The notes below the pieces were generated by a model. That model had not been told where the DNA came from. It worked only from the letters and a program-made list of their open reading frames with translations, and ran no database searches. The translations under genes and the position numbers were made by a program. A stretch of 36,727 nucleotides of DNA from Corallococcus praedator. Its GTDB lineage: Bacteria > Myxococcota > Myxococcia > Myxococcales > Myxococcaceae. The DNA lies in NCBI RefSeq assembly GCF_003612125.1, contig NZ_RAWI01000048.1:1-36727 (forward strand). The letters run 5' to 3'. Below are positions 14,855-18,306 of the stretch, piece after piece. The stretch's first letter is position 1; each line of letters starts with the position of its first letter.

Positions 14855-14896
14855 GAGCCCCGCTGGAGGCTCCCGGGGGAGGCTCCAGCGGGGCTC
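14855..14896 (-). terminator. 42-nt near-perfect hairpin after the DUF4142 gene
   Basis: A 14-bp outer stem (GAGCCCCGCTGGAG with CTCCAGCGGGGCTC), a single G-G mismatch and an inner CTCCC/GGGAG stem around GG give 19 of 20 possible pairs. It begins 38 bases after the DUF4142 stop on the minus strand and has no T tract. It should isolate that gene from the kinase operon. Confidence 0.6.
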
Positions 14897-14933
14897 ATGG
14901 ATGGGACGTGTTTCGTGCGCCGTGGGGGGAGGC

Positions 14934-15545
14934 CTACGGGACGGGCAGCAGCCGCGTCTGGATCTCCTCGGCTTCCTGGATGTGAAGCTGGACCTGCTGC
15001 CGCTCGGTCTGGAGCTCCTGGACCAGGGCCGGCAGGGTGACCTGGGGCGTCAGGAGGCTGTCGCCGACGAAGGCGGTGCGCGCGTGCGCGTTGAGCTGCG
15101 CGCTCATCAGCGCCAGGTCGAACGCGGCGCCCTGGGGCGCATCCGGGCCCTGGAGGATCTCCAGCATCTGCTTCACTTCATCCTGCAGTTGGAGGCTCAG
15201 CGGGCTGTCCTCGGGCGTGATGCCCTGGCTTTGCAGCAACGCGTCCAGCCGCTGCCGCGCGGCGGTGTGCTCGGTGACCATGGCGTTGTTGAAGTCGCGC
15301 ACGGCGGGGTCGGTGGCGAGGGGCCCGCCGAAGGTTCCGAGCATCACCTCGCCTTCGTTCGCCACCTGCAGCACGCGGGCGATCTGCGCGTCGGTGAGCG
15401 TCACCACCGTGCCGGCGTCCGCGACGATCTCGAGCTCGGGCGGAGGATTGCCGCCGTTGTCATCGGCGTCGGAACTGCACGCCGCGCTGCCCAGCACCAT
15501 CGCACCCGCCAATACCGCGCCCAACCAGTACCCTGCCAATCGCAT
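14934..15545 (-). CDS. DUF4142 family lipoprotein
   Basis: A 203-residue lipoprotein. The signal is MRLAGYWLGAVLAGAMVLGSAAC with lipobox SAAC (Cys23), followed by SSDADDNGG, a flexible acidic linker. The rest matches the DUF4142 (ferritin-like, putative outer-membrane) family: DAQIARVLQVANEGEVMLG, then AVRDFNNAMVTEHTAARQRL, the expected helical pattern with the conserved F-x-x-x-M-x-x-E/D-H segment, and a final long helix. AAGGAG lies nine bases before the ATG at 15545. The function of DUF4142 is unknown; some members are linked to envelope stress. It is divergent from the helicase gene across a palindrome-rich 199-bp gap. Confidence 0.85.
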   Translation of the reverse strand: MRLAGYWLGAVLAGAMVLGSAACSSDADDNGGNPPPELEIVADAGTVVTLTDAQIARVLQVANEGEVMLGTFGGPLATDPAVRDFNNAMVTEHTAARQRLDALLQSQGITPEDSPLSLQLQDEVKQMLEILQGPDAPQGAAFDLALMSAQLNAHARTAFVGDSLLTPQVTLPALVQELQTERQQVQLHIQEAEEIQTRLLPVP

Positions 15546-15587
15546 GAGGCCCGCTCCTTCTGAGGATTGAGCACGCAGGGTGGGGAC

Positions 15588-15695
15588 CGCCTCGCGAGGC
15601 GACCATCAGCGGCCCAGCCGATGCCACTGTGGAGCAGTCCACAGCCCCGGGGACGGCCGGCAGGTCGCCTGCCGCCAGCGAAGCGGTCCCGGGAC
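15588..15695. promoter_or_regulatory. cluster of five palindromes or inverted repeats
   Basis: Five perfect symmetric elements lie in 108 bp of the divergent DUF4142/helicase gap. They are CGCCTCGCGAGGCG (15588-15601), CTGTGGA-GCAG-TCCACAG (15627-15644), CCCCGGGG (15645-15652), CGGCAGG-TCG-CCTGCCG (15658-15674) and GTCCCGGGAC (15686-15695). They may be operators for one or more dimeric regulators or structured RNA; no coding capacity explains them. Confidence 0.5.
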
Positions 15696-15744
15696 GCGCG
15701 ATTTTCACGGCGAGCTGGGGCGCCAACCCCTAGAGTCGCCCTCG

Positions 15745-18306
15745 ATGAGTGCCCCTGAAGACACCCGCGCCCCGCTCGCCGCCCTGTTGCCGAAGCCCGG
15801 CGAGCCTCCCCTCGACGCCGATGAGATCCTCAATCGCTTCGTCGGTTACGTGGCCACCAACGGGTTGAGCCTGTACTCCGCCCAGGAGGAGGCCATCCTG
15901 GAGCTCTTGAGCGACAAGCACCTGTTCCTCAAGACCCCCACCGGCTCCGGCAAGTCGCTGGTGGCCATGGCGCTGCACTTCAAGTCCATGGCCGAGGGCA
16001 AGGTGTCGTTCTACACGTGCCCCATCAAGGCGCTGGTGAACGAGAAGTTCTTCCAGCTCTCCAAGGCCTTCGGCCCGGAGAACGTGGGCATGCTGACGGG
16101 CGACGCGAGCATCAACCGCGAAGCGCCCATCCTCTGCTGCACGGCCGAAATCCTGGCGAACCTCGCGCTGCGCGACGCCTCCGCGCGCGTGGACGCAGTG
16201 GTGATGGATGAGTTCCATTACTACTCCGACAAGGAGCGCGGTACGGCCTGGCAGATTCCGCTGCTGGCGCTGCCGAAGACGCAGTTCCTGCTGATGTCCG
16301 CGACGTTGGGCGACACGCACATCATCGAGCAGAGCCTGGAGCAGCTCACCGGCCGCGAGGTGGCCACGGTGCGAAGCTCCGAGCGCCCCGTGCCGCTGGA
16401 CTTCGACTACCGCGAGGCGGCGCTGCACGAGACCATCCAGGACCTCATCGCGCGCGGGAAGTACCCCATCTACCTGGTGAACTTCACGCAGCGCGCCGCG
16501 GCCGAGCAGGCGCAAAATCTGATGTCGGTGGACTTCAACACCAAGGAGGAGAAGGAGGAGCTGCGCCAGGCGTTGATGGACGCGCCCTTCGACACGCCCT
16601 ACGGCAAGGACTTCCAGCGCTTCCTGCGCCACGGCATCGGGATGCACCACGCGGGCCTCTTGCCCAAGTACCGACTGCTGGTGGAGAAGCTGGCGCAGCA
16701 GGGCCTGCTCAAGGTCATCAGCGGCACGGACACGCTGGGCGTGGGCGTGAACATCCCCATCCGCACGGTGCTCTTCACGCAGCTGTTCAAGTTCAACGGC
16801 GAGAAGCTGACGACGCTGAGCGTGCGCGACTTCAAGCAGATTTCCGGACGCGCGGGCCGCAAGGGCTTCGACACCGAGGGCAGCGTGGTGGCGCAGGCGC
16901 CCGAGTACGTGGTGGAGAACATCAAGCAGGCGGCCAAGGAGGCCGCGGGCAAGAAGAAGACGCCCAAGGCGAAGCCGCCGCAGAAGGGCTTCGTGCAGTA
17001 CGACAAGAGCACCTTCGAGCGGCTCCAGAACGGCATGCCGGAGCCCCTGGAGTCCCGCTTCGAGGTGAGCCACGGCCTGCTGCTCAACCTGCTCCAGAGC
17101 GACAAGACGGAGGGCAGCGGCGGCTACAAGCGGCTGGTGCAGCTGGTGCGCCGCTCGCACAGCTCCGAGTACACGAAGAAGAAGCTCCTGAAGGACGCGG
17201 CGATGTACTTCCGCACCCTGCGCGAGGCGGGCATCGTGCAGGTGGTGCAGTGGGAGGGCCGCTCCTCCACGGTGGAGGTGGCGGGCGAGCTGCAGCGCGA
17301 CTTCAGCCTCAACCACACGCTGTCGCTGTACCTGCACGAGACGCTGGAGCTGCTGGATCCGGCGGTGGAGACGTACGCGCTGGACGTCGTCACGCTGGTG
17401 GAGTCCATCCTGGAGAACCCTGACGTGGTGCTCTACGCGCAGCTGCACCAGCTCAAGGGCGAGAAGATCCAGGAGATGAAGGCGCAGGGCATGGAGTACG
17501 ACGACCGGATGGAGGAGCTGGAGAAGCTGGAGTGGCACAAGCCCAACCGCGACTTCGTCTACGGCACCTTCAACGCCTTCGCGCGCAAGCACCCGTGGGT
17601 GGGCGAGGAGAACATCCGCCCCAAGTCCATCGTGCGCGACATGTTCGAGCGCTTCATGTCCTTCCACGACTACGTGCGGGAGTACGGCCTGCAGCGCAGC
17701 GAGGGCGTGCTGCTGCGCTACGTGGGGGACGTCTACAAGTCGCTGACGCAGACGGTGCCGGAGCGCTTCCGCAACGAGGAGGTGGACGACATCATCGACC
17801 ACCTGCGCGCGACGCTGCGTCAGGTGGACTCCAGCCTCCTGGACGAGTGGGAGCGGATGAAGAACCCGGGCGCGCCCATCGAGGCGAAGCCGGTGGTGGA
17901 CCTGAAGCCCAAGGAGCTCACCGAGGACCCGAAGGCCTTCGCCGCGCGCGTGCGCGAGGAGCTGCACCGGCTGCTGCGCGCCCTGGGCCAGCGCCGCTAC
18001 CTGGACGCGCTGGGCATGCTGGACAACGCCCTGGGCGAGTGGACCGCGCCGAAGCTGGAGCAGGCGATGGCGCCGTACTTCGAGGAGCACAAGCTGGTGG
18101 TGCTCACGCCCCAGGCGCGAAAGCCGGCCAACACCCAGCTCAAGGAGGCCGGCACCCGTCAGTGGGAGGCCCAGCAGCGCATCATGGACCCGGAGGGCCA
18201 TGGGGACTGGGTCATCGACGCGGAGATCGACTTGCGCGGCCGCCGCATGGACGACGGCCCCATCCTGATGCTGCGCCGCATTGGCGGCATGAGCGCGTGG
18301 ACCTGA
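15745..18306 (+). CDS. SKI2-like DEAD/DEAH-box helicase with a DUF3516-type C-terminus
   Basis: An 853-residue superfamily 2 helicase, probably acting on RNA. Motif Q-like SLYSAQEEAILEL is followed by Walker A TPTGSGKS (about residues 59-66), a DEFHYY motif II in place of DEVH, motif III SATL, and motif VI QISGRAGRKG near residue 370. The C-terminal part matches the DUF3516 helical region of the Ski2/Mtr4-like bacterial group found in actinobacteria and myxobacteria. ATG at 15745 is chosen because homology begins there; the open frame upstream crosses the palindrome cluster and looks non-coding. There is no Shine-Dalgarno, but TAGAGT lies eight bases upstream. The stop falls in the first unit of an 8-bp tandem repeat that has stops in all three frames. 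Confidence 0.9.
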   Translation: MSAPEDTRAPLAALLPKPGEPPLDADEILNRFVGYVATNGLSLYSAQEEAILELLSDKHLFLKTPTGSGKSLVAMALHFKSMAEGKVSFYTCPIKALVNEKFFQLSKAFGPENVGMLTGDASINREAPILCCTAEILANLALRDASARVDAVVMDEFHYYSDKERGTAWQIPLLALPKTQFLLMSATLGDTHIIEQSLEQLTGREVATVRSSERPVPLDFDYREAALHETIQDLIARGKYPIYLVNFTQRAAAEQAQNLMSVDFNTKEEKEELRQALMDAPFDTPYGKDFQRFLRHGIGMHHAGLLPKYRLLVEKLAQQGLLKVISGTDTLGVGVNIPIRTVLFTQLFKFNGEKLTTLSVRDFKQISGRAGRKGFDTEGSVVAQAPEYVVENIKQAAKEAAGKKKTPKAKPPQKGFVQYDKSTFERLQNGMPEPLESRFEVSHGLLLNLLQSDKTEGSGGYKRLVQLVRRSHSSEYTKKKLLKDAAMYFRTLREAGIVQVVQWEGRSSTVEVAGELQRDFSLNHTLSLYLHETLELLDPAVETYALDVVTLVESILENPDVVLYAQLHQLKGEKIQEMKAQGMEYDDRMEELEKLEWHKPNRDFVYGTFNAFARKHPWVGEENIRPKSIVRDMFERFMSFHDYVREYGLQRSEGVLLRYVGDVYKSLTQTVPERFRNEEVDDIIDHLRATLRQVDSSLLDEWERMKNPGAPIEAKPVVDLKPKELTEDPKAFAARVREELHRLLRALGQRRYLDALGMLDNALGEWTAPKLEQAMAPYFEEHKLVVLTPQARKPANTQLKEAGTRQWEAQQRIMDPEGHGDWVIDAEIDLRGRRMDDGPILMLRRIGGMSAWT

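Follow-up and report, generated by a model that had tools for sequence, protein, structure and literature searches.

The divergent gap and its palindromes

In the window analysed here (the whole stretch of 36,727 nucleotides from Corallococcus praedator, whose numbering is used throughout), a DUF4142 lipoprotein gene and a gene for a SKI2-like DEAD-box helicase with DUF3516 are transcribed away from each other, and five inverted repeats, here called P1 to P5, are packed into the gap between them (Table 1). To our knowledge, no function is known for the DUF4142 domain. A strong terminator-like hairpin around CCCCGCTGGAGGCTCCCGGGGGAGGCTCCAGCGGGG (14859-14897) lies downstream of the lipoprotein gene.

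Table 1. Genes, palindromes and conserved blocks at the DUF4142/helicase gap, in window positions.
Feature	Position	Strand	Basis
DUF4142 lipoprotein gene, AAGGAG ribosome-binding site	14934-15545	-	Pfam PF13628, E 5e-17; ORF
Conserved CCCACCCT/CCCATCCT block, possible -10 region of DUF4142 promoter	15577-15584	-	spacing; putative -10 assignment
P1, CGCCTCGCGAGGCG, arms 7+7	15588-15601		not conserved
Conserved P2 extension towards DUF4142, TGGCATCGGCTG; in most congeners TGGCAACGGCTG	15615-15626	-	alignments, pattern search
P2, CTGTG-N8-CACAG, 7-4-7; candidate CRP-family operator, DUF4142 promoter	15627-15644	-	conservation, spacing
P3, CCCCGGGG, arms 4+4	15645-15652		not conserved
P4, CGGCAGG-TCG-CCTGCCG, 7-3-7	15658-15674		lineage-specific
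P5, GTCCCGGGAC, arms 5+5	15686-15695		lineage-specific; identical only in G009
Helicase core promoter, about 50 bp: GCGCGATTTT, then GCGCCAACCCCTAGAGT (15720-15736)	15696-15744	+	conserved in 16 congeners, independent of upstream sequence
SKI2-like DEAD-box helicase with DUF3516, ATG at 15745	15745-18306	+	Pfam PF00270, PF12029 (E 8e-153), PF00271

The five palindromes that a preliminary description had reported within 108 bp are all in place, with perfect arms, and their density in the gap is unusual. The comparison with shuffled sequence that it had proposed bears this out: among 3000 dinucleotide-preserving shuffles of 108 bp, one held at least three arms of at least 7 bp, and none reached a summed length of non-overlapping arms of at least 34 (shuffle mean, 11). 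A scan of the window revealed no second stretch of matching density, save overlapping intervals at the same place. As a background from the same genome we used 398,735 bases, in 20 stretches from other contigs, in which two more clusters had three arms of 7 bp or longer and no cluster had a summed arm length of at least 33; by that count, clusters with three arms should number some tens in the 10.5 Mb genome. A dispersed or REP-like repeat was also considered and rejected, since a search of the whole genome returned no further copy of the cluster except one weak 46-bp match (81%) in contig C542. No intrinsic terminators were detected.

The search of the genus covered 16 genomes, the window's own among them. 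The DUF4142 gene adjoins the helicase start in eight of these (in one, the closest relative G009, the helicase copy at that place is truncated), and the eight gaps, window included, were aligned. The gap of the window shows the palindrome excess, that of G009 shows it weakly, and the other six gaps do not show it, so that as a unit the cluster is not conserved among congeners. The observation is real and its explanation appears ordinary: the only conserved part is a candidate operator of CRP-family type for the adjacent lipoprotein gene. An eye-catching cluster of palindromes can, in other words, be mostly lineage-specific spacer.

P2 and the DUF4142 promoter

P2 is the palindrome that the alignment keeps. 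Its outer five pairs (CTGTG/CACAG) are retained in seven of the eight gaps, with four pairs in the eighth (TTGTG); the spacer flanking it diverges, the inner positions are variable and partly unpaired, and the outer pairs, being conserved in sequence, do not covary. Outer pairs that are kept around inner positions that vary and are partly unpaired form the pattern of protein-binding DNA with two half-sites, not that of an RNA stem. Conservation extends further and is stronger in the right half than in the left, and P2 may therefore be more than a symmetric operator.

The spacing of P2 assigns it to one of the two genes. In the eight aligned gaps, about 87-93 bp separate its centre from the DUF4142 start (similarly elsewhere in the genus), whereas its distance to the helicase start ranges from about 74 to 133 bp. 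Nearly all congeners with a DUF4142 gene, among them six in which the helicase is not adjacent (G001, G002, G004, G005, G012 and G014, the last with one half-site base changed), have an element of this kind at a similar distance from that gene, and in G004 a TGTG-N8-CACA element stands upstream of both tandem DUF4142 copies. With its spacing fixed to DUF4142 and varying to the helicase, and with its presence where the helicase is no neighbour, P2 belongs to the DUF4142 promoter. In 11 genomes there is a single match to the pattern formed by P2 and its extension, in each case at DUF4142, and in G006, G008 and G010 the form is more diverged; the pattern search found none in G011 and G015, both of which lack a DUF4142 match. 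Tandem duplicates of the DUF4142 gene are found in two genomes (G003:C1:6041668-6043057 and G004:C413:1127-2579).

Between P2 and the gene, the CCCACCCT/CCCATCCT block is set 51.5-52.5 bp away from the centre of P2, as measured in eight congeners. The centre of P2 stands some 90 bp ahead of the start codon and some 52 bp upstream of this -10-like block, a position that would most likely make P2 an upstream activator site. One DUF4142 promoter (L060) has the site without the leading C/T, and the palindrome was not found at DUF4142 genes of more remote family members. Matches to sigma-70 consensus promoters were not found. A sigma-54 reading of TGGCATCGGCTGGGC, which fits the window by eye, was rejected: congeners do not retain the GC at -12.

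A probable CRP-family site and its candidate regulator

The form TGTG-N8-CACA is that of CRP-family sites, and P2 contains this inverted repeat, kept in congeners. P2 is in this respect like the operators of E. coli CRP, Mycobacterium tuberculosis CRP (Rv3676) and Corynebacterium glutamicum GlxR (TGTGA-N6-TCACA), all inverted repeats, and it too stands at a fixed distance upstream of its gene; the genome also encodes a CRP-Mt/GlxR-like protein whose own promoter has such sites. It differs in that the half-sites at DUF4142 are TGTGG or TGTGC: across the congeners the fifth base is G or C and never the A of TGTGA, so that the full consensus half-site is absent, whereas the sites at the regulator gene described below have A. 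The candidate target, a DUF4142 lipoprotein gene, is a further difference, and the operator role of P2 is a prediction.

Across the 10.5 Mb genome there are five exact matches to CTGTG-N8-CACAG, as against six for a control pattern; without enrichment, the string proves nothing alone. Three of the five matches fall within open reading frames; of the remaining pair, one is at the DUF4142 promoter and one at the promoter of a CRP-family gene on contig C881. This second promoter also carries TGTGAAGGCGTTCACA, a perfect TGTGA-N6-TCACA, a pattern present twice in the genome (control pattern, 0). In 16 of 16 congeners its two sites keep their positions, -121 and -98, to within 1 bp. The other perfect TGTGA-N6-TCACA (G000:C243:15148-15163, L167) immediately precedes the gene of a dehydrogenase/epimerase-like protein, which is divergent from a LysR-like regulator gene.

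The product of the C881 gene (G000:C881:28422-29099) has cNMP_binding and HTH_Crp_2 domains and was found in all 16 congeners. Among solved structures it is closest to M. tuberculosis CRP, followed by GlxR; a stretch of its recognition helix reads RESVNK where that of M. tuberculosis CRP reads RETVNK. The CRP-Mt motif resembles that of E. coli CRP, TGTGAN6TCACA (PMC4117774), and GlxR binds TGTGANNTANNTCACA (PMC4254451). The site lies 46.5 bp from the putative -10 block at the regulator gene, as compared with 51.5-52.5 bp at DUF4142.

We propose that a dimeric CRP-family regulator would bind P2 as its operator, upstream of the promoter of the DUF4142 lipoprotein gene. The best candidate is the M. 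tuberculosis-CRP-like C881 protein, whose own promoter has a site of the same type; the G or C found throughout at the fifth base of the P2 half-site speaks against it, and binding of P2 by the C881 protein is what we infer from sequence comparison. DUF4142 in this genus would thereby gain a candidate regulator that can be tested. A broader formulation, which we put forward only tentatively, is a genus-specific CRP-family circuit in which an autoregulated regulator of the M. tuberculosis CRP type, with very few exact sites in 10.5 Mb, would control the DUF4142 lipoprotein separately from MrpC. The wider biological consequence is modest.

Less probable than the reading that we favour is that P2, though a genuine operator or promoter element for DUF4142, has another binder: an MrpC-like or other CRP-family protein, or an alternative sigma factor reading CAGTGGCAACGG as an upstream box. 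Four matches to HTH_Crp_2 exceed the cut-off in this genome, the conserved block reaches beyond the palindrome (TGGCAACGGCTG), and TGGCAACGG persists without the palindrome in one more distant DUF4142 promoter (L077), all of which favour this alternative; against it, P2 keeps its two half-sites at a constant spacing, as expected for a dimer. The putative MrpC-like protein encoded here is the product of a separate gene, on contig C667. The sites of Myxococcus xanthus MrpC (TGTY-N8-RAC, PMC4320627) are likewise CRP-family, myxobacterial and built around an 8-bp centre, but their half-site is TGTY rather than the TGTG of P2, and since TGTG-N8-CACA does not fit the consensus we rejected an identification of P2 as an MrpC site.

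The other palindromes and the helicase promoter

The remaining palindromes behave differently from P2 in the aligned gaps. P1 reads CGCCTCGTGGAGTG in G009, with four of its seven pairs broken, and is unrecognisable in the others; P3 has lost one pair in G009 and is lost in the remainder; P4 is identical only in G009, partial in G008 and G010, absent from G006, and broken in G003, G007 and G013. The block that holds P4 and P5 is variable in length, and G006 lacks it entirely. Throughout, the pairs of P1, P3, P4 and P5 are broken with no compensation. The preliminary description had suggested aligning this gap across relatives, with independent mutation of the arms as the mark of a chance cluster: by that measure P2 stands, while these four either fail or give no test. 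We suggest that they are lineage-specific sequence in a fast-changing spacer. Improbable, in our judgement, is that P4 and P5, together with the long inverted repeat GGGACCGC...GCGGTCCC (15583-15690), make up a functional element of the species pair, such as a local operator or the remnant of a mobile palindromic sequence. About 50 bp around P4/P5 are identical in G009 while nearby P1 has diverged, as such an element would have it; but P4 and P5 are broken or absent in other congeners, there is no second genomic copy beyond the C542 match, and a short spacer may be common to two close genomes by descent.

The helicase core promoter begins only after the last of the five palindromes, and its -10-like box (GCGCCAACCCCTAGAGT) is 8 nt from the helicase ATG. 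Across the family, the helicase has a T-rich block ahead of it, together with a CTAnAnT-type box 15-20 nt before the ATG in 22 of 28 loci, and a Shine-Dalgarno sequence was found in none of the 28; together these suggest a leaderless helicase transcript. Half of the congeners have different sequence upstream of the helicase, with the last 50 bp of the same kind. The helicase would thus have a separate, compact promoter and probably a leaderless mRNA, and the palindromes, upstream of that promoter, probably fall outside the transcript, which makes a structured leader unlikely.

The preliminary description had read the cluster as several operators or as a structured leader RNA through which the helicase might regulate itself. 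Of the first reading, P2 alone is operator-like, and it belongs to DUF4142, not to the helicase. The second is hardly credible: the stretch does lie upstream of the helicase and a hairpin-rich fold can be drawn for it, but that fold is not unusually stable (z = -0.78 against shuffles), Rfam gives nothing in the gap (two matches, both far below the gathering score, lie outside it), the arms change without compensation, the core promoter is downstream of every palindrome, and half of the congeners have other sequence there. The suggestion of a regulatory helicase leader is thereby all but removed. The reading that we favour, and consider reasonably probable as a whole, is that the gap comprises two independent promoters placed back to back, with P2 as a CRP-family operator for DUF4142, a leaderless helicase, and the other palindromes as spacer.

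The truncated helicase copy in G009 follows a DUF4142-type gap (G009:C8, L004, 1867 to about 2030, with L019/L023) and consists of the first ~30 residues fused to a later stretch of DUF3516. A full-length helicase gene lies ~1.9 kb downstream of it, with other sequence upstream. This arrangement suggests an old duplication or rearrangement with its breakpoint just upstream of the helicase core promoter.
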